A stretch of 64,000 bases of DNA from Skermanella mucosa (lineage in GTDB: Bacteria > Pseudomonadota > Alphaproteobacteria > Azospirillales > Azospirillaceae): positions 186,001 through 250,000 of the forward strand of contig NZ_CP086107.1 of the NCBI RefSeq assembly GCF_016765655.2. Direction: 5' to 3'. This document shows, in pieces, positions 38,403 through 49,829 of this stretch (position 1 is the stretch's first letter; each line of letters opens with the position of its first letter). The notes below the pieces were generated by a model that was given only the letters and a program-made list of their open reading frames with translations, made no database searches and was not told the DNA's origin. Position numbers and translations under genes: made by a program.

Positions 38403-38965
38403 CGCCGGACGACGACTTCGGCGGCGGCGAGGCGCTGGAACAGGCGTCGTCGGCGGTCCGGCGGAAGCCACTCGTACAGGAACATCTCGAGCGGCTTCCA
38501 GATCGAGACCCACCCCAGGATGACGAAGCTTTCCTGCACGATCCGCGTGATCGGACGGGCGGGAAGGTTTTCCGTCACGTGCCAGGCGAGCAGCAGGCAG
38601 GTGGCGAGCGTCGCGAAGCCGATCAGCCCGGCGCGGCGCCCGGCCCTGAACAGCTCCCTGATCCTTTTGGACTCGACGTTCGCGCTGGCGGCGAAATGGC
38701 CGGTCATGGCGGCGGCGATGTCGGACGCCGAACGCCCGGACTCCCCGGCCGCTTCGGCGGCCGGCAGGTGGATGACGATGCGGAGCCGCTGGTTCGCCGG
38801 CAGCTCCTTCGCCTTCAGGAGGAGATACTCGTCCGCCTCCGCCGTCAGGGTGCCCTCGCGGAACGGCGACGGATCAACGTCGGTGAACAGCTGCGAAAGC
38901 CTGCCCAGCCTGATGTCGATGTCCCCGCCCGTCCGCTCCGTCGGCAGCACGACCGCTTTGTTCAT
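38399..38965 (-). CDS. Small two-helix membrane protein in the RND/MlaA operon
   Basis: A 188-residue protein. Residues 1-105 are soluble (TDVDPSPFREGTLTAEADEY, YLLLKAKELP), and then come two hydrophobic segments (about 115-132 AGLIGFATLATCLLLAWHV and 145-165). The tail is basic (RRRRLFQRL). Both ends overlap neighbours by 4 bases (ATGA, GTGA), so it is made with the pump and the lipase. GAGGG precedes ATG 38965. I do not know a function; the family seems to travel with RND-type transporters. Confidence 0.75.
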   Translation of the reverse strand: MNKAVVLPTERTGGDIDIRLGRLSQLFTDVDPSPFREGTLTAEADEYLLLKAKELPANQRLRIVIHLPAAEAAGESGRSASDIAAAMTGHFAASANVESKRIRELFRAGRRAGLIGFATLATCLLLAWHVTENLPARPITRIVQESFVILGWVSIWKPLEMFLYEWLPPDRRRRLFQRLAAAEVVVRR

Positions 38966-41900
38966 GTCGATCCCTCCAGCTTCCTCTCCCGGCCGCCGAA
39001 CCACGTCACGTACAGGGTCGGCAGGAAGACGAGCGTCAGCAGCGAGGCGACGAGCAGGCCGCCCATGATCGCGAAGGCCATCGCCCCCCAGAACACCGTG
39101 AACGCGATCGGGATCAGGCCGAGCACGGTGGAGGCCGCCGTCAGCATGATCGGGCGGAACCGGGAACTGCTCGCCTCGATCACGGCGTCCGTCACGTTCC
39201 TTCCCGCCTTCCGTTCCGCCTCGATCTGCTCGATCAGGATCACCGCGTTCTTCGCGATCATGCCGACCAGGGCCAGGACGCCCAGGATCGCGACGAAGCC
39301 GAGCGGCTGGCCGAAGGCCAGCAGCGCCAGGACGACGCCGATCAGCCCGAGCGGCACCACGCTCAGCACAAGCAACAGGCGCTGGAAACTCCTGAGCTGG
39401 ACCATCAGGACGGTCAGCACGAGGAACACCATCAGCGGCACGACGGCGAAGACCGACGCGCGGCTCTCGGCGCTTTCCTCCGCGATGCCGCCGATCTCGA
39501 TGCGGTGACCCTTCGGCAGGGTCGAGGACAGGTCCGCGATCTTCGGCGCCAACTCGTCGATGACGGCTTCCGGCATGATGCCGCCCGCCACGTCGGCCTG
39601 CACCGTCAGCGTCGGCACCCGGTTGCGCCGCCAGACCAGCGGATGGTCCTGTCCGTACTCGAACGTCGCGAACTGCTTCAACGGGACGGTGCGCCCGTTC
39701 GGCAGCGACACTTCGAGGGTGCGCAGCGTCTCCACGGAAAGGGTCTGGCCGCGGGTCTCCCGCGCCAGGACGTTGACCAGATGGATCCCGTCGCGCACCT
39801 GGGTGACCGTCGCCCCGGAGATCGCGGCGTTGAGCACGGTGGCCGTTGCCGCCGAGCTCAGGCCCAGGCGCCGCGCCTCGTCCTGGTCGATCCGGATGCG
39901 CAACTCGCGGGAGGTCTCCATCCAGTCGAAGTTGATCCGCCGCGTCTCCGGTGCGGTCGCCATGACCTGCGCCAGCCGGAGCGCGATCTCGCGCACCTCG
40001 ACCGGATCGGGGCCGCTGACGCGATACTGGAGCGGCCAGCCCACGGGCGGCCCGAGCTCCAGCGGATAGACGCGTCCGACCACGTCGGGGAACTCCTCGG
40101 CCAGCAGCTGCTCCAGCCGGGGCTGCAGCCGCTCGCGCGCCTCGATGCTCTTGGTCACGATCACGGACTGGCCGACGAAGGGGTTGGCCAGCTGGACGTT
40201 CAGCGGCAGGTAGAAGCGGATGGCGCCGCGCCCGACATAGCTGCTCCAGCTTTCGATGTCGGGGTCCTCGCCCAGGCGCGCGTCGAACCGCTCCACGGCG
40301 CTCTGCGTGGCATGGATCGACGCGTTCTGCGGCAGCCGGAGATCGACCAGAAGCTCGACGCGGTCCGATGGCGGGAAGAACTGCCGGGGAACCAAGCCCA
40401 GCATCAGGATCGAGAGGACGAAGAATCCCAGCGTGACCCCGATGGTCAGCCAGCGCGCCCGGATCGCTGCGGCCAGCACGCGGCGATAGGATCGCAGCAC
40501 GACGTTCGGCTTCGTGGCCTGGGCCGCCATGGGCGGGCGCAGCAGCATCGTGCCCAGCAGGGGCGCGAAGATCATCGCGACGAACCAGGAGGCGATCAGC
40601 GCGATGCCTACGACGGCGAAGATCGAGAAGGTGTACTCCCCGGCCGAGCTCTGCGCGAAGCCGATGGGCACGAAGCCCGCGATCGTCACCAGCGTGCCGG
40701 CCAGCATGGCGAAGGCCAGGGTCTTGTAGGCGTACACCGCCGCCACCTCCATCCGGTCGCCTGCCGCCAGCCGCCGGGTCATGGCGTCGATGGTCGTCAG
40801 GGCATCGTCGACCAGCAGGGCCAGCGCTATGATCAGCGCGCCCAGGGAGACGCGCTGGAGGTCGATATCGACCAGGTCCATCACCGGAAAGACGATGGCC
40901 AGGGTCAGCGGTATGGCGATCGCGACGACGGTCCCGGCGCGGACGCCGAGCGCCAGGAAGCTGACCGACAGCACGATGAGGATCGCCTGCCACAGGGAGG
41001 TGGTGAAGTCCGAGACCGCCTCGTCCACGGTGCTCGCCTGGTCGGCCACCAGCTCCGCCTCGATGCCGATCGGCAGGTCGGCGACGATGCTCGCCATCTC
41101 GGCCGCGATGTTGTTGCCCAGCGCCAGGATGTCGCCGCCCTCGCGCATCGCGATAGCAAGGCCGAGCGCCGGCTCGCCATTCACCCGGAAGACGGGCTGC
41201 GGCGGGTCGGCGTAGGCGCGGCGCACGTCGGCCAGATCGCGCAGGCGCAGCATGCGGCCCGCCGCCACGAAGTTGACGTCCAGGATGTCCCGCTCCGTTT
41301 CGAAGGCGCCCGACACCTGGAGGGACAGCGCCTCCTCGCCGGTGCGCAGCACGCCGGCCGGACGTACCATGTTCTGGGCCTGGAGCGCCGCGATCAGCGC
41401 GGCCGGCTCGACCCCGAGCCCGGCCAGCGCCGCCGCCGAGAAATCGACGAAGATGCGTTCGTCCTGCTCGCCCAGGATCTCGATCTTGGAGACGTCCGGC
41501 ACCAGCAGCAGGCGGGAGCGGACATCCTCCACATGGTCGCGCAGTTCGCGGTGGGTGAAGCCCTCGGCGGTGAAGCCGTAGATGATGCCGAACGTGTCGC
41601 CGAAATCGTCGTTGAAGCCCGGCCCGACGACGCCCTGGGGCAGGGTATGGCGCATGTCGGCGACCCTCTTGCGCACCTCGTACCAGGTGTCGGCCACCAC
41701 TTGCCCGTGGGCGCTTCCCACGAGATCCACGAAGATCACGGTCGTCCCGGCGACCGTGTAGCTGCGCAGCCTGTCGAGGTTGGATACCTCCTGCAGCGTC
41801 CGCTCGAGCCGCTCCGTCACCTGCTGCAAGGTATCGTCCAGCGTAGCGCCCGGCCATTGGGCCTGTACCACCATCGTGCGGATCGTGAAGACGGGGTCCT

Positions 41901-42015
41901 CCGCCCGGCCCAGCTTCAGGAAGGACATGGCCCCGGCCAAGACGATGGCGATCATGAAGAAGACGACCAGGGAGGGGTTCCTGATCGACCATTCCGAAAG
42001 GTTGAAGCCGTTCAC
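38962..42015 (-). CDS. RND-family efflux transporter permease
   Basis: A 1017-residue inner-membrane pump of the AcrB-like superfamily with twelve helices and two large periplasmic loops. Proton-relay residues are present: the Asp pair in ALLVDDALTTIDAM (TM4) and Lys in GMIAKNAVILIEQIE (TM10). The N-terminus SEWSIRNPSLVVFFMIAIVLAGAMSF places it with the CzcA/AcrB-like branch that pairs with one adaptor. The GTG start at 42015 is fixed by a GTGA overlap with the adaptor gene. No outer-membrane channel gene is close; MlaA and TamB follow instead. Its substrate could be lipid-like. Confidence 0.95.
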   Translation of the reverse strand: MNGFNLSEWSIRNPSLVVFFMIAIVLAGAMSFLKLGRAEDPVFTIRTMVVQAQWPGATLDDTLQQVTERLERTLQEVSNLDRLRSYTVAGTTVIFVDLVGSAHGQVVADTWYEVRKRVADMRHTLPQGVVGPGFNDDFGDTFGIIYGFTAEGFTHRELRDHVEDVRSRLLLVPDVSKIEILGEQDERIFVDFSAAALAGLGVEPAALIAALQAQNMVRPAGVLRTGEEALSLQVSGAFETERDILDVNFVAAGRMLRLRDLADVRRAYADPPQPVFRVNGEPALGLAIAMREGGDILALGNNIAAEMASIVADLPIGIEAELVADQASTVDEAVSDFTTSLWQAILIVLSVSFLALGVRAGTVVAIAIPLTLAIVFPVMDLVDIDLQRVSLGALIIALALLVDDALTTIDAMTRRLAAGDRMEVAAVYAYKTLAFAMLAGTLVTIAGFVPIGFAQSSAGEYTFSIFAVVGIALIASWFVAMIFAPLLGTMLLRPPMAAQATKPNVVLRSYRRVLAAAIRARWLTIGVTLGFFVLSILMLGLVPRQFFPPSDRVELLVDLRLPQNASIHATQSAVERFDARLGEDPDIESWSSYVGRGAIRFYLPLNVQLANPFVGQSVIVTKSIEARERLQPRLEQLLAEEFPDVVGRVYPLELGPPVGWPLQYRVSGPDPVEVREIALRLAQVMATAPETRRINFDWMETSRELRIRIDQDEARRLGLSSAATATVLNAAISGATVTQVRDGIHLVNVLARETRGQTLSVETLRTLEVSLPNGRTVPLKQFATFEYGQDHPLVWRRNRVPTLTVQADVAGGIMPEAVIDELAPKIADLSSTLPKGHRIEIGGIAEESAESRASVFAVVPLMVFLVLTVLMVQLRSFQRLLLVLSVVPLGLIGVVLALLAFGQPLGFVAILGVLALVGMIAKNAVILIEQIEAERKAGRNVTDAVIEASSSRFRPIMLTAASTVLGLIPIAFTVFWGAMAFAIMGGLLVASLLTLVFLPTLYVTWFGGRERKLEGST

Positions 42016-43163
42016 GGTGCTGCACCCAGGATGCGGACCTGCTGACCCGGCCGCAGCGCCTGCACGCCGGCCGTGACGACGACGTCATAAGGCTCCAGCC
42101 CTTGCGCCACGACGACCCGGGCGAGGTCGAAGCGATCGACGTCGATGTTGCGGAGCGCCACGGTGCCGCTCGCCGGATCGACGATCCAGACGGCGGGCTG
42201 GCGGTTGGCCTGGGTCAGGGCCGAGGCGGGGATCTCGATCGCGCCGGCCCCGCCCAACTGCATCGACCCGACGACCGTGGAGCCGAGCCGCATCGCCTCG
42301 GGCGGGTCGTGCAGGCCGATCCGGATCTGGAAGGTGCGGGTCACGGGATCGGCCTGAGGTGCCACCTCGCGCACCCGGCCGGTGGTGCTCACCGTCGGGT
42401 CCGAGGTCAGCGCCACGGTGATGAAGGGGTCGGCGGGCGCATTCTGGATCACCCGCGCCGGCACGTCGAAGACGGCGTCGCGCCCGCCTTGGCGGGCCAG
42501 GTGCACGATCATCCGGCCGGCCGCCACGACCTCGCCCGGTTCGGCCCCGCGGGCGGTGACCGAGCCGGCGCTGTCCGCCACCAGTTCGGTGTATCCCAGG
42601 TGGTCCTCGGCGATGTTGAGCTGCGCCTGGGCCGCATCGAGCTGGGCCTCGGCGGACTTCCGCGCCTCCAGCGCCTGGTCGTAGCGCGCGCGGGTGGTCC
42701 AGCCCTGGCCCAGCAGGGTCTCCTGCCGGTCGTAGTCGTTGCGCACCCTGGTCAACTGGCCCATGGCGGCCGTCAGGTTCGCGCGGGCCGTCTGGAGGGC
42801 GTTGCGCGCCGGTTCGGGATCGAGCCGGGCGATGACCTGGCCGGCCTCCACGCGGTCGCCCACGTTCACCGGGCGCTCGATCATCCGCCCGCCGACGCGG
42901 AACGACAGGCTGACCTCCTCCTGCGCCTGGACCTGCCCCGTCAGGGTGACCGTCTCACCCGCCTCGCGTTTCTCGACCGTCACCACCCGGACCGGACGGA
43001 TCGGCTCGGCCACGCTTTCCTCCTCGCCCCCGCACGCCGCCAGCAGCGTCAGCGATACGAGCGCGAGCACCAGGGGCGCCGGCCTCCGCCGCCGCGGCAA
43101 GGGTCGGGATTTCCGCTCGGAAGCGCAGATCCAGGTTCGTCTTCGGTTCACGGTCGCCCCCAT
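42012..43163 (-). CDS. RND efflux periplasmic adaptor (membrane fusion) lipoprotein
   Basis: A 383-residue adaptor. The N-terminus has a basic stretch and a lipobox (LTLLAACGG, Cys near residue 43). Then come the biotinyl-lipoyl half motifs (VSLSFRVGGRMIERPVNVGDRVEAG), a coiled-coil hairpin (about residues 105-185; ARKSAEAQLDAAQAQLNIAE) and beta-barrel domains. It links the pump to an outer-membrane duct. ATG 43163 is used. It is the first gene of the tight RND-TamB series and starts only 29 bp after the GntP permease gene. Confidence 0.93.
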   Translation of the reverse strand: MGATVNRRRTWICASERKSRPLPRRRRPAPLVLALVSLTLLAACGGEEESVAEPIRPVRVVTVEKREAGETVTLTGQVQAQEEVSLSFRVGGRMIERPVNVGDRVEAGQVIARLDPEPARNALQTARANLTAAMGQLTRVRNDYDRQETLLGQGWTTRARYDQALEARKSAEAQLDAAQAQLNIAEDHLGYTELVADSAGSVTARGAEPGEVVAAGRMIVHLARQGGRDAVFDVPARVIQNAPADPFITVALTSDPTVSTTGRVREVAPQADPVTRTFQIRIGLHDPPEAMRLGSTVVGSMQLGGAGAIEIPASALTQANRQPAVWIVDPASGTVALRNIDVDRFDLARVVVAQGLEPYDVVVTAGVQALRPGQQVRILGAAP

Positions 43164-43192
43164 TTGTGCCGGTTCACGGCGAGCCTGTCCGG

Positions 43193-44662
43193 TCAGAAGG
43201 AGCCGAAAAGGCTGGTCAAGACGATCAAGACAGCCAACGCCAGCATCGGTATGGCGCAAGCGACGATGAAGACGTCGCCGTAGGCCTCGCGGTGGCTGAT
43301 CTTGCAGACGGTGAGAAGCGTGATGACGGCACCGTTGTGCGGCAGCGCGTCGAGGGCGCCCGACGCGACCGCCGTCACCCGATGCATGGCATCAAGGGAA
43401 ACGCCGGTCGCGTTCGCCAAGTCGACGAATGTCGGACCCAGGCTGTCCAGGGCGATGCTCATGCCGCCGGAGGCCGAGCCGGTCATCGCGGAAAGCACCG
43501 AGACCGACAGCGCCACCGACATCAGCGGGTTGCCCCCGCCGACCGCCAGGACGGCCTGGCTGATCAGGTCGAAGACCGGCAGTGCCGCGATCACCGCACC
43601 GAAGCCGACGAGGCTCGCGGTATTGAAGATCGGCAGGACCGAGGCGTCGGCGCCCTTGTCCAGGCTCGCCCGCAGATCGGTCAGACGGCGCCAGTTGCCG
43701 GCGACGAGCAGGAGGATGGCGAGGAACAGCGCCACGATGACCGCCCAGACGCCCCGGACGCTCTCGATCGTCGTCGACCCGAACAGCGGCTCGGCGAGCC
43801 ACGAGGTGTCGAGCATCGGGATCACGACCTGGATGAAGGCGAAGTTGGTGACGATCACCACGACCACGGGCAGCACCGCCAGCGCGAACGGGGGCAACTC
43901 CCCGTTCCGGCGCGTTCCCGCCGGTGCCGGGTCCCCCGACAGTTCGGCGATGTCGAACCCCGCGCCCTGCGCGTGCTCGCGCGTCGCCACGTCGGTTCCC
44001 GGCACGCCGTCGGCATGCGCGCCGTAGCCCTCGCCCGCCGTCCGCGCCCGGGCGGCGCGGCGGTTCAGCCATGCCAGCCCGAGCAGAAGCATCACCAGGC
44101 CGGTGACGATCCCGAGCCCCGGGGCGGCGAAGGCCGTGGTGCCCAGGAAGGGCATGGGGATCGCGTTCTGGATGGCCGGCGATCCCGGCAGGGCCGACAT
44201 GGTGAAGGTGAACGCGCCGAGCGCCAGCGCCCCCGGCATCAGGCGCTTCGGAATGTCGGCGGCGCGGAACAGGGCCGCCGCGACCGGGATGATCGCGAAG
44301 GCGACGACGAACGCCGAGACGCCGCCATAGGTCAGCAGGGCGCAGCACAGGACGACCGAAACGATGGCGCGCTCGGGTCCCAGCCAGGCGCTGACCGAGC
44401 CCGCGAGGGATTTCGCCGATCCCGTATCGTCCATCAGCTTCCCGAAGATCGCCCCCAGCATGAACAGGGGGAAGAACGAAACGATGAAGGCGCCGGTGTT
44501 GGTCATGAAGATCTGGGTATAGGCCCCCAGGATCGGCAGCCCGCCGGTCAGCAGCGCCGCGAGAAGCGCCATGGCCGGAGCCAGGATCAGCAGGGTCACC
44601 CCGCGATAGGCCAGGTACATGAGCAGTCCGAGCGCCAGGAGGACCGCGACGAGATCGAGCAT
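43193..44662 (-). CDS. GntP-family permease
   Basis: A 489-residue proton symporter of the GntP group with about 12 helices and a polar insert near residues 210-250. Features include a typical opening (LALGLLMYLAYRGVTLLILAP), LPGSPAIQNAIP mid-protein, and a conserved SGSASGGMSIALD-type segment (TGSASGGMSIALDSL). GntP members carry gluconate, other sugar acids or, in several proteobacteria, 3-hydroxybutyrate. Since a D-3-hydroxybutyrate dehydrogenase is 12 kb away and a patatin directly upstream (47 bp), 3-hydroxybutyrate is a fair candidate. Confidence 0.9.
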   Translation of the reverse strand: MLDLVAVLLALGLLMYLAYRGVTLLILAPAMALLAALLTGGLPILGAYTQIFMTNTGAFIVSFFPLFMLGAIFGKLMDDTGSAKSLAGSVSAWLGPERAIVSVVLCCALLTYGGVSAFVVAFAIIPVAAALFRAADIPKRLMPGALALGAFTFTMSALPGSPAIQNAIPMPFLGTTAFAAPGLGIVTGLVMLLLGLAWLNRRAARARTAGEGYGAHADGVPGTDVATREHAQGAGFDIAELSGDPAPAGTRRNGELPPFALAVLPVVVVIVTNFAFIQVVIPMLDTSWLAEPLFGSTTIESVRGVWAVIVALFLAILLLVAGNWRRLTDLRASLDKGADASVLPIFNTASLVGFGAVIAALPVFDLISQAVLAVGGGNPLMSVALSVSVLSAMTGSASGGMSIALDSLGPTFVDLANATGVSLDAMHRVTAVASGALDALPHNGAVITLLTVCKISHREAYGDVFIVACAIPMLALAVLIVLTSLFGSF

Positions 44663-44709
44663 GTCTAAGACTTCTCCCGGAAGCGGAGACCCAGCGTTTC
44701 AAGCCCGGT

Positions 44710-45969
44710 TCAGGCGGGTTCGGGGTAGCGCGCGTCGTTCGGATAGCGGATGAAGTCCGCGCCCAGCGCACGCCAGTCCGCCAGCCACCGTTCCGCGACC
44801 GCCTGGCCCTCCTCGCGAAGCCTCGCGAAATGCGCCGGGCTGCGGTCGAACTTGGATGTGTGCTTGAGGCCCCAGGCGGTTTCGCTCGTCATCTTGATCG
44901 TCCGGACATCGACGATCTTCCGGGCGTCCAGCGGGGGGTGGTCGTTGCCGTATTTCCTGATCCACTGGTTGATCGTCATGATGGTGTCCAGTTCCTGGTT
45001 CAGGGACAGGTTTCCGGCCAAGTCGTTCACCCGATCGTCGATGTCCTCGAGGCTGATATTCAACGACGCGGGACGGAATTCCTGCGGATTGATGCGGACG
45101 ATCCAGATCTCGTCCGGCTTCTCGTCCTTCGTCGCGGCGTCCAGCAGATCCCGCACGGGCGGATTGCGCGAGTACAGGCCATCCCAATAGTATCCGGTGC
45201 GGGTGACGGTCCGGCCCGGATCGCAGGTCGGGAACATCATGTTCCCGATGACCTGTGCCGGCAGGACTTCCGGAAGCATCCCCGACGCCGCCACGCCCTC
45301 CAGCGATATCGAGCGGCGCATCCGCCACCGGACGATGTCGTACTGGTCTATCTCCCGTCCGTCCGGCAGCAGGCCCATCTGCTCGAGGGTCTTGTCGCTG
45401 TCGAAGATTTCGAAGTTGCCGCTGAGGACCTCGATGGCGCCGACGATGATCCGCAGATCCGCCTTCGCCAGCTGCGGCCAGTCGATCTTGTCGAAGTCCG
45501 GACACACCGCCCTGAGCAGGGCCGGAAATCCCAGGTACTCCTGGCGGGCGCCCATCATCGACAGGCTGGTAAGACCGAGATTGGCCTGCCTGTCGTAAGG
45601 ATTCGACCCGGGAAACGGCACCCCCCGCGATTTCCAGTGCAGGAGGGTGCCGACGATCTGGTTGAGGGCGGTTTCGGCCGGGGTGGTCGCGGCGAACGTC
45701 GTCCAGAGGAAATCCAGACGCTCGATGGCCTTGTCGATCGTCCCGCAATCCGCGTCGGCGGAGTTGGGAGCCAGGCCGTACCATGTCGCGAGCGCACACA
45801 GCGCGCCCGCCGAGGTGCCGCTGACCGCGATGATCCTGAAGGTGTCGCCGTCCCGCGGGTTGGCGTCCCAGCGCTTCTTCGTCGCCAGGATCGTCCTCAG
45901 CACGCCCCAGGTGAACGCGGCATGCGTGCCCCCGCCCTGGCAGGCGATCGCAACCTTTCTGGTGGCCAT
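44710..45969 (-). CDS. Patatin-like phospholipase
   Basis: A 419-residue serine acyl hydrolase. Oxyanion loop GGG at 12-14 (CQGGGTHAAFTWGVL), nucleophile Ser53 in GTSAGA, and catalytic Asp in YYWDGLYSRNPP complete the dyad (DGL instead of the common DGG). No signal peptide: it should act inside the cell on lipids or possibly on polyhydroxybutyrate granule surfaces. AGGAG precedes ATG 45969. It lies 98 bp after the hexapeptide-repeat gene and 47 bp before the permease. A second patatin is at 57549 beside the hydroxybutyrate dehydrogenase. Confidence 0.92.
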   Translation of the reverse strand: MATRKVAIACQGGGTHAAFTWGVLRTILATKKRWDANPRDGDTFRIIAVSGTSAGALCALATWYGLAPNSADADCGTIDKAIERLDFLWTTFAATTPAETALNQIVGTLLHWKSRGVPFPGSNPYDRQANLGLTSLSMMGARQEYLGFPALLRAVCPDFDKIDWPQLAKADLRIIVGAIEVLSGNFEIFDSDKTLEQMGLLPDGREIDQYDIVRWRMRRSISLEGVAASGMLPEVLPAQVIGNMMFPTCDPGRTVTRTGYYWDGLYSRNPPVRDLLDAATKDEKPDEIWIVRINPQEFRPASLNISLEDIDDRVNDLAGNLSLNQELDTIMTINQWIRKYGNDHPPLDARKIVDVRTIKMTSETAWGLKHTSKFDRSPAHFARLREEGQAVAERWLADWRALGADFIRYPNDARYPEPA

Positions 45970-46003
45970 GACTCTCCTAATCTTCTCTTGATGCAACGGC
46001 AAC

Positions 46004-46032
46004 GGAGCGGCCGACCGCAGGCCGGCCACTCC
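46004..46032 (-). terminator. Hairpin after the hexapeptide-repeat gene
   Basis: GGAG-C-GGCCG pairs with CGGCC-A-CTCC (one mismatch, 9-base loop) in the 98-bp gap between the repeat gene stop and the patatin start. It may attenuate transcription into the patatin gene. There is no T-run. Confidence 0.4.
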
Positions 46033-46067
46033 GCCCGCGTCCGTAGTCACAGGGTACGGGCCCGGGG

Positions 46068-46646
46068 CTACCGCATCGAAACGTCGGTGTCGTAAGGAAC
46101 CCTGACCTTCTTGACGGTCAGGTCGAACGGCGCATCCGGGGTCGAGGCCGTGGTGCCCAGGTACATGAAGGTTCCCGCCGGAAGGGATGCGCCCGCGGCC
46201 AGCGTCGTGCCGGCGGGCAGGCAGGCGCCGGGCGGCAGGGACATGCCGGCCGGCAGTGTCGTGCCGCCCGGAAGGAACATGCCGCTGGGCAGGATCGAGC
46301 CCTTGGGCCAGGTGGTTCCTTCGGCGACCCTCTCGCCATCGGCCAGCATCGCGCCGTTGGGCATGGTCATGCCCTGCGTGAGGGTGACGCCGCTGGTCAG
46401 GGCGACGCCGCTGGCCAGGCTTATGTCCTCGTTGACGTCCATGCCGTTGAGCAGGCACACGCCGTTGAGCAGCTTGATATCGTTTTCGAGGGTGATGTCA
46501 TCGGTCAGCAGCAGGCCGCGGCTCATGGTCACGCCGTCGACGACCATCTCGGCCGCCATGGCCGGGCCGGAGGCGCTGCAAAGACCGACGGCGACAGCCA
46601 CGATCCCGGCAGCCCGCATGGCTTTGAAGACAGGTGTTTTGCGCAT
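46068..46646 (-). CDS. Secreted hexapeptide-repeat (predicted beta-solenoid) protein
   Basis: A 192-residue exported protein. The signal peptide covers residues 1-32 (AAGIVAVAVGLCSASGPAMA). Residues 35-166 consist of 22 uninterrupted six-residue units with consensus [LMV]-x-x-[GD]-x-[TSLIAM]; examples are LTSGVT, LPAGTT and LPPGAC. A 26-residue non-repeat tail (FDLTVKKVRVPYDTDVSMR) ends it. The strict 6-residue period with buried Leu and turn Gly suggests a left-handed beta-helix or similar solenoid, but the Gly sits at +3 from Leu, not +1 as in hexapeptide acyltransferases. GGAAG precedes ATG 46646. It likely works in the periplasm or at the surface. I do not recognise a described family. 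Confidence 0.85.
   Translation of the reverse strand: MRKTPVFKAMRAAGIVAVAVGLCSASGPAMAAEMVVDGVTMSRGLLLTDDITLENDIKLLNGVCLLNGMDVNEDISLASGVALTSGVTLTQGMTMPNGAMLADGERVAEGTTWPKGSILPSGMFLPGGTTLPAGMSLPPGACLPAGTTLAAGASLPAGTFMYLGTTASTPDAPFDLTVKKVRVPYDTDVSMR
46149..46544 (-). repeat. 22 tandem 18-bp coding units (hexapeptide array)
   Basis: The 396 bp encode 22 hexapeptides in perfect register with no insertion or deletion. At DNA level the copies have diverged well, apart from the Pro-Gly-rich 3' half, where units such as CTGCC-GGC-GGC-type recur. So the array is old and kept by selection, not a recent slippage tract. Confidence 0.85.
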
Positions 46647-46692
46647 GGTTTCTTCCTTTTTTGAAAGATGAAGATCCGACACCATTGGGGTT

Positions 46693-46896
46693 TCACTGCG
46701 CGCAATCGAATGAAAGGCTTTCCATTTTCATGGCGATGGAAGCTTCTGACGTTTCATCGGATTTCAATGCGGGTGGCAGGTCAGATGATTCCGCAATGAA
46801 CATCTCGTTTTCTAAGGAGAGCGTGACTGTGAAATGATCTTCTGCGTCCGTCGGAAACCGGCTTGATATCTTTGGATCGCTTCTCGCGAACCTCAT
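46693..46896 (-). CDS. Possible small protein (weak)
   Basis: A 67-residue frame on the minus strand, 10 bp after the glycine-zipper lipoprotein stop. It has a beta-strand-like middle (HFTVTLSLENEMFIAESS) but no ribosome site and weak G/C at third positions. An overlapping frame exists on the other strand. It may only be A+T-richer spacer. Confidence 0.25.
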   Translation of the reverse strand: MRFARSDPKISSRFPTDAEDHFTVTLSLENEMFIAESSDLPPALKSDETSEASIAMKMESLSFDCAQ

Positions 46897-46905
46897 TCAT
46901 TGACG

Positions 46906-47313
46906 TTATTTATTGCGTTCGCGATGCCATTGCTCGAAAAGACGTCGCTCCTCGATCTCGCGGCGGACCTCTTCGTCCTGCAGGGCGCGTTGGCGCTCGA
47001 AGTCGAGTTGCCGGCGCGCGCTGGCGTCCCGTGAGGCTTCGGCCTCCTGTATCCGCCGATTCTCGGCTTGCCGGTCGAGCGTCATGTTGCCGGCGAGTCC
47101 TCCGGCGGCGGCCCCGATGAGCATGCCGCTCGTGCTGTTGCCGAAGATCGCCCTGCTGACGCCCGCGCCGGCGGCGGCGCCGCCGAGCGTGCCGACGCCG
47201 GCCGTCGCGGTTCCGCCGCCGGTCGTCTCGCAGCCGGCCAGCGCCAACCCGGCGACGACCCCCAGCAAGGAGATCCTCAGTCCCGTCCGGCGCGTTCCAT
47301 GCAGCTTCCTCAT
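46906..47313 (-). CDS. Glycine-zipper lipoprotein
   Basis: A 135-residue lipoprotein. The signal ends in lipobox GLALAGCETT (Cys near residue 28). A glycine-zipper hairpin follows (about residues 38-76: AGVGTLGGAAAGAGVSRAIFG and GMLIGAAAGGLAGNM), then a charged alpha-helical tail (EVRREIEERRLFEQWHRE) typical of peptidoglycan-side SlyB/OsmB-like proteins. Its ATG overlaps the stop of the EF-hand gene (ATGA), so they are made together. A role in outer-membrane integrity is likely but general. Confidence 0.85.
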   Translation of the reverse strand: MRKLHGTRRTGLRISLLGVVAGLALAGCETTGGGTATAGVGTLGGAAAGAGVSRAIFGNSTSGMLIGAAAGGLAGNMTLDRQAENRRIQEAEASRDASARRQLDFERQRALQDEEVRREIEERRLFEQWHRERNK

Positions 47314-47747
47314 CTTGCAGCTCCCAGGTCGGAGCTTGCCGCCTCGACCATTTCTTCGAAGGACAGGGCACCGTCACCGTCTTTGTCGCCGGCCGCGAGC
47401 GCCCGGGTCTTGTTGATCATCACCTCCGAGAAAGTCAGGACGCCGTCGCCGTTGGCGTCGATGCGGGAGAACCTGGCCGGGTCATGCGGTCCCAGTTCAC
47501 TCCGCGTCAGCGTCCCGCTCCGGTCCTTGTCGAGCGAACTGAACCCGACGGCCGCATCCCGGGCAAGTTCGGCCTCGCTGACCAGTTCATCGGCATCGGT
47601 ATCGGCCGCCTCGAAGGCCAAGCGTTCGTACCCGGTTGCTTCCGTCCCGCCAGCCTGCTGCGCATTGGCGGACTTGACCGGCACCCCCGCCATTACAAAG
47701 GGGAAACACAGTGAGGCCGCGAGAATTCGGGCATACGGGGTCAGCAT
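47310..47747 (-). CDS. Secreted four-EF-hand calcium-binding protein
   Basis: A 145-residue protein. The signal peptide covers residues 1 to about 29 (ILAASLCFPFVMAGVPVKSANA). Four EF-hand loops follow: DTDADELVSEAE, DKDRSGTLTRSE, DANGDGVLTFSE and DKDGDGALSFEE, each with Asp at 1, acidic or Asn/Asp at 3 and 5, and Glu at 12. It should bind calcium in the periplasm. ATG 47747 puts the signal at the N-terminus; the in-frame ATG 33 bases earlier lacks support. It is first in the minus-strand envelope run and translationally coupled to the lipoprotein gene. Confidence 0.9.
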   Translation of the reverse strand: MLTPYARILAASLCFPFVMAGVPVKSANAQQAGGTEATGYERLAFEAADTDADELVSEAELARDAAVGFSSLDKDRSGTLTRSELGPHDPARFSRIDANGDGVLTFSEVMINKTRALAAGDKDGDGALSFEEMVEAASSDLGAAR

Positions 47748-48347
47748 AGCCCATCGTTCTCTTGCGTATCGGCTAAGCATCCACGTTTCCTCTTTTCTGT
47801 TCTATCGCGATCTTGCGCTATCCAGATCGGATCAACCTGACATGTGTACAGTGAAGTTACTCACGTGGACAAACTACTATATTGACTATGAGCGCAAGAA
47901 GCATTCAATGCGGTAAGGCGATTAGCTCTTTAGGCTTCTACAAAATAGTGTTTCAAATAAGCCGTTCATGGAAATCAGAATCGACCATGAGTCTTCCGGA
48001 GTAAAGTAAAAATGTCATATCAATATTTCAAGAAAACATTTCATATGAAACGATACATTCTATGAACAGTCCTTGCCAGGAAGTTTTCATTCGGATAACG
48101 TGGCTATAACGGTCTGTTTTCTCGGTTGTTTCCTCATTTCCGACATCGCTCAAGGTCTCGGTCATCGCGCGGCTGTGCTGCGGGACCGTTCTCATGGATC
48201 GATCCCTTCATGTGGATGGGCGAGGTCACCGAAGCGGCGGGTTATCCGGGCGGAAACACCCCGGGGGTCCCGCCGGGGCCCACGGGAAACGAAGTAAACG
48301 GAAGCGGGAATACTCGGAAGCCGGAATACCAACAAGAGGTGGGCATC
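47748..48347. other. 600-bp A+T-rich intergenic region, divergent promoters
   Basis: No convincing gene lies here. From 47790 to 48130 it is strongly A+T-rich for this genome; from 48150 it returns to high G+C. A 12-bp perfect palindrome TTTCATATGAAA is at 48039-48050. Open frames in the G+C-rich part (48126-48347) merge with the lipase frame but have no ribosome site. It separates the divergent EF-hand operon and the lipase gene, so it should hold both promoters. Confidence 0.6.
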
Positions 48348-49829
48348 ATGCGGATTTGGGTCGCAAGGATGTTGAAGCGGGCCGCGGCGCTGCTTGCCGT
48401 CCTCGCGGTGGCGTTGCTCGGCATCCGCGCCTATGATTCCCAGCGCGGCCAACCGCTCGAACCCTGGCACAAATACGTCCCCGAGGAACTGGGCGCCGAT
48501 GAACTCGACGACGGCGACTGGGCCGGTTACCTGAAGACCGAGGCGGATCTCTTCGACAGGGTGCGGGAGGAAGTCACGCGGAAGCTGCCGCCGGAAGACC
48601 GCATCCCGGTCAACCGTTATTTCGACGGCAGCCCGATCCATCCGGGACGGTTTCCCCAGGACTGGAACCGCTCATATACGCTCGAACCCGTCGGCCCTCT
48701 CCGCGGCGCGGTCGTGTTCCTCCATGGCCTGACCGACTCGCCCTACAGCCTGCGCCACATCGCCCGACGGTACGGCGAGCACGGCTTCGCCGCGGTGGCC
48801 ATCAGGCTGCCCGGGCATGGCACCGTCCCGGCCGGCCTGACGGACATCGACTGGGAGGATTGGCTGGCGGCGACCCGGTTGACGGTCAGGGAAGCCCGGC
48901 GCCGGGCAGGTCCGGGGCTGCCGCTTCACCTGGTCGGCTTCTCGAACGGCGGCGCGCTCGCGATGATGTACGCGCTCGACGCCTTGGACGACGATCGTCT
49001 GACGCGGCCGGACCGGATCGTGCTGATCTCACCGATGATCGGAATCACCGCGTTCGCGCGCTTCGCCGGACTGGCGGGGCTGCCCGCGATATTCCCGGCC
49101 TTCGCGAAAGCCGCCTGGCTCAGCGTGCTGCCGGAGTTCAATCCCTTCAAATACAACTCCTTCCCGATCAACGGGGCGCGCCAGTCGCACCTGCTGACGG
49201 AAGCGCTCCAGCGGAAGATCGCGGCCCGCGCGTCGGACGGCCGTTTGGCCGAACTGCCCCCGATCATCACTTTCCAGTCGGTGATGGATTTCACGGTCAG
49301 CACGCGCGCGATCGTGTCCGCGCTGTATGCCCATCTGCCCGCCAACGGCAGCGAACTCGTGCTGTTCGATGTGAACCGCAACACCAAGTTCGGTCCGCTC
49401 CTGAGTTCCGCCTCCGACACCATTCTGACCCGGATCCTGCCCGAACCGCCCCGGCGGTTCAGGACTACGATCATCACCAACGCCAGCCCCGACAGCGCCG
49501 AGGTGGTCGAGCGCGTCGTGGAGGCGGGTGCCGCCACCGAGCAGACACGCGATCTCGGATTGTCCTATCCGATCGACGTCTACTCGCTTTCCCATGTCGC
49601 CCTTCCGTTCCCGACCAGCGACTCCCTTTACGGCCTGCACCCCGATCCTGCGGAGGATTTCGGCATCAACCTGGGCGCCCTGGCCGCGCGGGGGGAGCGG
49701 GGCGCCCTGATCGTCAGCATGGACTCGCTGCTTCGCATGTCGTCCAATCCGTTCTTTCCCTATCTCATGGGGCGGATCGAGGAAAAGCTGACGTCGCCTC
49801 CGCAGCTGAACGCCGGACACGGCGATTGA
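48348..49829 (+). CDS. Membrane-anchored alpha/beta hydrolase (lipase/esterase)
   Basis: A 493-residue protein. An N-terminal hydrophobic anchor or signal covers residues 5-24 (MLKRAAALLAVLAVALLGI). The hydrolase core has HG oxyanion motif VVFLHGLTDSPYSLRHIA, nucleophile elbow LVGFSNGGALAMM, and a late His in DVYSLSHVALPFP. It resembles monoacylglycerol lipase-like serine aquaporin-independent esterases in the order of motifs, with a long C-terminal lid region. ATG 48348 is preceded by GAGGTGGG. It faces the periplasm by topology. The substrate is probably a lipid ester, unproven. Confidence 0.87.
   Translation: MRIWVARMLKRAAALLAVLAVALLGIRAYDSQRGQPLEPWHKYVPEELGADELDDGDWAGYLKTEADLFDRVREEVTRKLPPEDRIPVNRYFDGSPIHPGRFPQDWNRSYTLEPVGPLRGAVVFLHGLTDSPYSLRHIARRYGEHGFAAVAIRLPGHGTVPAGLTDIDWEDWLAATRLTVREARRRAGPGLPLHLVGFSNGGALAMMYALDALDDDRLTRPDRIVLISPMIGITAFARFAGLAGLPAIFPAFAKAAWLSVLPEFNPFKYNSFPINGARQSHLLTEALQRKIAARASDGRLAELPPIITFQSVMDFTVSTRAIVSALYAHLPANGSELVLFDVNRNTKFGPLLSSASDTILTRILPEPPRRFRTTIITNASPDSAEVVERVVEAGAATEQTRDLGLSYPIDVYSLSHVALPFPTSDSLYGLHPDPAEDFGINLGALAARGERGALIVSMDSLLRMSSNPFFPYLMGRIEEKLTSPPQLNAGHGD

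Follow-up and report, generated by a model that had tools for sequence, protein, structure and literature searches.

HEX, a Skermanella gene for a probably exported protein of 22 unbroken hexapeptides and a candidate left-handed β-helix-like fold

The left-handed β-helix (LbH) superfamily, to which acyltransferases and γ-carbonic anhydrases belong and which is represented in Pfam by Hexapep (PF00132), is built from six-residue units with an aliphatic column, Gly, Asp or Asn three residues later (i+3) and a small or hydrophobic residue at i+4. Successive turns of the helix are spaced about 4.8 Å apart, and γ-carbonic anhydrases carry three metal-binding histidines.

Here, we analyzed HEX, a hexapeptide-repeat protein gene located within a 64,000-nucleotide stretch of Skermanella mucosa DNA (hereafter, the window). 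Its product shares with the LbH superfamily the six-residue unit and all three column features given above. Unlike the members of that superfamily, it has no Gly at i+1 in any of its 22 units and carries Pro at this position in eight of them, has a putative signal peptide (recognized by eye) and an unbroken repeat, and is devoid of histidine; further, no Pfam Hexapep match is listed for it. If three units made one turn, HEX would have about seven turns, similar to the seven coils of NeuO described in PMC3046976.

The hexapeptide-repeat gene and its orthologues

The features of the gene and of its surroundings are listed in Table 1. Residues 35–166 of the HEX protein consist of exactly 22 hexamers with no slip in register. 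Position 1 of the hexamer is occupied by Leu in 15 units, Val in three, Met in three and Trp in one, while position 4 holds Gly in 19 units and Asp in three. Read in its best register, the mature chain had 22 out of 22 units fitting the pattern [LMVIW]-x-x-[GDN], whereas 200,000 shuffles of the identical residues reached a maximum of 10 units and a mean of 3.5. This bears out the claim of 22 unbroken hexamers after a signal peptide, made in the first-pass annotation with no strand given; HEX lies on the minus strand. At the DNA level, identity within the repeat at a lag of 18 nt was 0.56 compared to 0.29 for shuffled DNA, indicating that the units have diverged and represent neither a fresh minisatellite nor a recent DNA duplication. 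The C-terminal half of the protein is rich in Pro and Gly.

Table 1. Coordinates of HEX, its sequence features and the neighbouring genes in the window, and loci of the HEX orthologues.
Feature	Position	Strand	Remarks
RND efflux permease	38962..42015	-	ORF start uncertain; name taken over from S. rosea
RND efflux periplasmic adaptor	42012..43259	-	ORF start uncertain
GntP/CitMHS-like permease	43193..44662	-	Two Pfam scores, each under the cut-off; GntP in the S. rosea annotation
Patatin-like phospholipase	44710..45972	-	About 95 bases downstream of HEX
HEX (hexapeptide-repeat protein gene)	46068..46646	-	192 aa plus stop
C-terminal tail, residues 167-192	46071..46148	-	26 residues with conserved DLTVKK and VPY (ortholog alignment)
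22 hexamers, residues 35-166	46149..46544	-	
Putative Sec signal peptide, residues 1-31	46554..46646	-	A-M-A before Ala32-Glu33; by eye
AGGAAG, likely ribosome-binding site	46652..46657	-	Ahead of the HEX ATG; by eye
Glycine-zipper 2TM-type protein	46906..47313	-	Just below Pfam cut-off; beside HEX in 3/3 loci
EF-hand protein	47310..47780	-	Beside HEX in 3/3 loci
Alpha/beta hydrolase	48126..49829	+	Start uncertain; inverted relative to the Azospirillum module
HEX orthologue, S. rosea			NZ_CP086113.1
HEX orthologue, S. stibiiresistens			NZ_AVFL01000033.1

No HEX match above the curated cut-off was found in Pfam or NCBIfam, and the best PHROGs match had an E-value of 0.028. The best Pfam matches, Drf_FH1 and DUF4813, lay far below the cut-off and were taken as compositional. 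No description of the HEX protein was found in the literature searched. In line with the initial reading of HEX as a regular, probably exported repeat protein outside the named families, with a signal peptide that is putative and identified by eye, the search of protein families with the repeat, which had been suggested as a check, returned no confident named family. The absence of an enzyme motif, also claimed at that stage, is consistent with these searches and with a sequence count of zero histidines. DUF6799 (PF20606) was tried and dropped; where bits were listed, full-length proteins scored 12.8 at most, with the cut-off at 26.8. It gave a weak match over 25 residues of the S. stibiiresistens protein (E-values of 0.1 and 0.61) and matched one of the three repeat domains at an E-value of 0.038; the window protein was not among its listed matches. 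A sample of 299 genomes from the phylum gave no match to DUF6799, but the control genomes gave none either, so that this result does not establish its absence.

Orthologues of HEX in S. rosea (86% identity) and S. stibiiresistens (72%) are equal in length and align with zero gaps. Across the three orthologues, dN/dS was 0.30–0.32 for the whole gene and 0.19–0.24 for the repeat. The AGGAAG upstream of the gene has identical letters in S. rosea and one change in S. stibiiresistens, and the S. rosea annotation includes HEX as a gene. A promoter/terminator scan of 45900–48300 gave no match.

An ORF of 186 aa lies opposite HEX (46111–46671, plus strand) and is open in both relatives too (191 and 212 aa), which raises the alternative that the minus-strand ORF is spurious and that the true gene, if any, is the one on the opposite strand. 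The antisense frame also showed low dN/dS (0.37–0.39 over the gene and 0.23–0.30 over the repeat), near the sense values, as expected where frames have third codon positions in common; selection alone therefore tells the strands apart weakly. However, the sense value was below the antisense value in each of the three pairs, and the minus-strand ORF begins like a signal peptide, is preceded by a conserved ribosome site and has a fixed length. The minus strand is favoured by this start and ribosome site together with the S. rosea annotation, and we regard the opposite-strand reading as scarcely credible. In all likelihood, HEX is a genuine gene of some age, and its product, judging from its N-terminus, is probably exported.

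Comparison with left-handed β-helix hexamers

A table of LbH columns was compiled from the Hexapep matches that the genome carrying HEX itself contains. Twenty-one matches were found and 19 entered, L067 and L070 being left out as short and overlapping others; after a length filter (L063 and L069 out), 17 matches remained, several from the same proteins, with 85 complete units. Gly, Asp or Asn occurred at i+3 from the aliphatic residue in 59 of these 85 units and in 22 of the 22 HEX units. A Leu–Gly spacing of three, which the first-pass annotation had taken to argue against the hexapeptide fold, is therefore no argument against LbH. Similar profiles were also observed in column 1 (Leu, Ile, Val or Met in 21/22 HEX and 81/85 LbH units) and in column 5 (small or hydrophobic in 21/22 and 84/85, respectively). 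What set the two apart was position i+1, immediately behind the aliphatic residue: Gly in 0/22 HEX vs. 51/85 LbH units, and Pro in 8/22 vs. 0/85. The full classical hexapeptide motif, as given in PMC12081914 and PMC3046976, was present in three of the 22 HEX units (one of 22 in each orthologue) compared to 53 of the 85 own-genome LbH units, and a further motif criterion was found in 0/22 and 47/85 units, respectively. As this defining motif is largely absent, HEX was not placed in the hexapeptide acyltransferase family. Nor does a protein that has no histidine offer the three metal-binding residues of γ-carbonic anhydrases, and the lack of histidine together with the unbroken repeat makes LbH enzyme activity unlikely. 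An ORF of another genome (L024), which we take to be a γ-carbonic anhydrase, carries VPPGKR-VPAGEM, the same unit type as HEX.

The LbH domain of EIF2B epsilon (PF25084) matched weakly over 7–8 hexamers, with E-values of 0.17 for the window protein and 0.0053 for S. rosea; its best E-value, 0.0023, was obtained with a repeat domain, and scores were 12.4–17.2 bits where shown vs. a cut-off of 54. In a sequence search of the PDB, 16 of the 21 weak HEX matches were LbH chains, chains being classed as LbH partly by title and partly from recall. Among the control sequences, reversed HEX matched LbH chains in 8/8 cases, two column-swapped versions in 36/36 and 17/20, and one other swap in 0/3; the swap placing Gly beside the aliphatic residue scored best of all (E-value of 2.5e-4). 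Since the reversed and two of the permuted controls match as often, LbH identity by sequence similarity is not proof, which also tempers the likeness to the EIF2B epsilon domain.

When scored against the LbH units of the same genome, the natural register was the best of six rotations in all three proteins, with a lead over the runner-up of 3.4–5.2 bits per hexamer. The natural column order ranked 11 among 120 cyclic orders, and those of the orthologues 13 and 23. Ten simple-repeat controls had column-order ranks of 12 to 93, and one of them, L023, scored slightly above HEX per hexamer.

A period of three hexamers gave a contrast p of 0.054 in the window protein, 0.011 in S. rosea and 0.36 in S. 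stibiiresistens, while periods of two, four and five gave 0.28–0.90 across the three proteins. Among periods of 2–5 hexamers, contrast was greatest for that of three in both the window protein and S. rosea, mostly from column 6, which would face outward; in S. stibiiresistens, the period-5 contrast was slightly above that of period 3. Columns 1 and 5 varied among orthologues in six of the 22 units, as many as columns 2 and 3, and a hydrophobic residue was kept at five of the six variable places in each, the exceptions being V/T in the first hexamer and T/D in the last. In column 4, two of the 22 units varied, each by a change to a charged residue (D to R and G to E), and mixed swaps, some of them charged, were observed in columns 2, 3 and 6. 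The substitutions would thus follow, in part, the inside/outside pattern of a solenoid.

Two AlphaFold2 models had mean pLDDT values of 39 and 51.6; in their central part, strand pairs recur at intervals of about six residues. Searches of solved structures with both models, and of viral structures with the second, returned none at an E-value ≤ 0.001. Such poor models say little, given that they were built from three near-identical sequences, but a clean LbH might have been recognized by AlphaFold2 despite so few sequences. Fold prediction had been put forward at the outset as a check: the strand pairs accord with the regular β-solenoid then expected, while no recognizable LbH was built. A confident match to a named family or a disordered chain had been named as outcomes that would count against that expectation; the former did not appear, and the models were too poor to judge the latter either way.

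Gene neighbourhood and distribution

The patatin and permease genes follow HEX on the same strand, as the first-pass annotation had stated. They form part of a five-gene row, α/β hydrolase, patatin, GntP permease, RND adaptor and RND permease, which is common to Azospirillum and Skermanella (window 38962–49829), with matches 70–98% identical to the window proteins. No description of this row was found in the literature searched. It was present in the Azospirillum plasmid loci L043, L044 and L045, which are three of the seven Azospirillum records with patatin, and in L048, from a genome of the same family; the proteins of these Azospirillum-type rows were 70–82% identical to those of the window. 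HEX, the EF-hand protein and the glycine-zipper protein had no match in these four loci (tblastn, E-value ≤ 1e-5, alignments over 40 aa), and patatin and GntP occurred without HEX in 4/4 loci read (the three Azospirillum plasmids and genome G028 of the same family).

All three Skermanella loci have an inverted hydrolase gene, with the EF-hand, glycine-zipper and HEX genes lying between hydrolase and patatin. Of five Skermanella genomes, the same three contain all of these last three genes; none of them was found in the other two, nor was patatin (E-value ≤ 1e-20). By eye, the starts of the EF-hand and glycine-zipper proteins look like export signals. Whether the neighbours are kept with HEX, another check proposed initially, was answered in the affirmative for patatin (3/3 loci) and in part for GntP (2/3). 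In the S. stibiiresistens locus (L049), there was no GntP match between patatin and the RND adaptor, and in the S. rosea locus (L034) a gene of the recombinase family separates GntP from the RND adaptor. As the Azospirillum-type row exists without HEX, and HEX is kept with its two neighbours, HEX seems to have been added to a gene row of greater age, within a small sample of three loci.

Full-length HEX was found in three of five genomes of the soil bacterium Skermanella, the window's own included. There were no other full-length matches among 99 relatives or 385 genomes of the class sample; among the genomes searched, HEX is restricted to Skermanella. Eight of the 99 relatives matched at an E-value ≤ 0.01, three at full length (G000, G002 and G004) and five over short stretches. 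In the class sample, nine of 385 genomes matched at an E-value ≤ 0.001, namely G000 and eight others, which were read as six simple six-residue repeats, one γ-carbonic anhydrase-like ORF (L024) and one acyltransferase-like ORF (L025). Fourteen weak loci were inspected, of which L012 crosses a stop and was unreadable. Six-residue repeat ORFs in other class genomes (L018, L022 and L023) have units such as VSIDPG and VAAGIA.

The genome-contig search confirmed one locus, that of S. stibiiresistens, of 102 candidate stretches, and 80 stretches of viral contigs fitted the pattern with none confirmed. Of eight plasmid records, those of S. rosea, Haliscomenobacter, Methylomagnum and Geminocystis were read, and those of Bacillus, Streptomyces (two) and Corynebacterium were left out. 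Apart from S. rosea, all plasmid matches read were simple repeats, as was the single phage record, where the annotated gene is on the other strand. The Haliscomenobacter, Methylomagnum and Geminocystis ORFs are 18-nt minisatellites that share with HEX the six-residue period; in contrast to their near-identical copies, the HEX units are diverged and fixed in length. These 18-nt repeats (L030, L031 and L032) lie within annotated plasmid genes, that of Geminocystis inside a tyrosine-type integrase gene.

Proposed fold and role

We propose, with about an even chance of being right, that HEX is an exported, non-enzymatic, short LbH-like β-solenoid that serves as a rigid envelope module made with the EF-hand and glycine-zipper proteins. 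A three-sided LbH-like solenoid with altered turns would be the most likely fold, and taken by itself this part of the proposal has roughly the same chance. Three hexamers would make one turn and the whole repeat about seven, a number that had already been suggested and is supported as a possibility. Columns 1 and 5 would point inward and columns 2, 3 and 6 outward, while column 4 (Gly or Asp) would form the turn; Pro, Ala or Thr takes the place of the Gly of classical LbH. Of the periplasmic scaffold and the surface fibre that the first-pass annotation had considered as possible roles, the latter would require stacking, since seven turns would give a stub of about 35 Å. The putative signal peptide, the partners and the surrounding module suggest that HEX, located in the periplasm or on the cell surface, may serve for rigid binding or packing; the role is read from the gene neighbourhood, and export and location are likewise inferred. 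HEX would be produced jointly with the EF-hand and glycine-zipper proteins, and the trio may be what Skermanella has added to a module of lipid/ester hydrolase and RND transport.

The main rivals to the LbH-like fold are another β-solenoid and an assembling low-complexity chain. In the former, a β-solenoid or β-roll with six residues per strand-turn and not three units per turn, as in the view of the first-pass annotation, the consistent lack of Gly after the aliphatic residue and the eight Pro would need no explaining away, nor would the failure of AlphaFold2 to build a recognizable LbH or the silence of period 3 in S. stibiiresistens. On the other hand, periods of two, four and five hexamers are nonsignificant while period 3 shows signal in S. 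rosea and, at the margin, in the window protein, and the column chemistry is LbH-like except at i+1; we consider this fold unlikely, if worth keeping in view. Rather improbable, in our judgement, is a flexible or assembling chain of the elastin or silk kind, with Pro/Gly turns, that is ordered on aggregation or binding only. The low confidence of both AlphaFold2 models is compatible with it, as are the Pro- and Gly-rich C-terminal half and the fact that the best Pfam likeness, although below cut-off, is a low-complexity FH1 region. Low-complexity chains often vary in length; however, the repeat number of HEX is constant in three species, dN/dS in the repeat is about 0.2, and changes in columns 1 and 5 are mostly hydrophobic-for-hydrophobic.

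An ice- or crystal-binding LbH with a threonine ladder on one face was also weighed. In column 6 of the window protein, one putative face has Thr at six of eight places compared to 0/7 and 2/7 on the others, and β-helix antifreeze proteins do exist (PMC12081914). However, the ladder is weaker in the orthologues (4/8 in S. rosea and 3/8 in S. stibiiresistens), T-x-T occurs once in the window repeat, once in S. stibiiresistens and not at all in S. rosea, and nothing points to a cold habitat. This function appears very improbable.

Returning to the LbH-like solenoid, a more far-reaching version of it would make HEX a new secreted LbH class, in which Pro-x-Gly turns replace Gly at i+1 and 22 loop-free units form a rigid adaptor without enzyme activity that connects the cell envelope with the Skermanella lipid-ester hydrolase/RND system; we put this forward as a doubtful, tentative extension. 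If HEX is an LbH protein, the motif used for recognition of the fold would be too narrow, as Pro, Ala, Thr and other residues could stand in for the Gly after the aliphatic residue in every unit. Protein design could then draw on a naturally occurring prism of 132 residues that lacks loops and is fixed in length. As a probably exported protein found in one genus with conserved partners, HEX may provide a small case of a new secreted module joining an older gene row.
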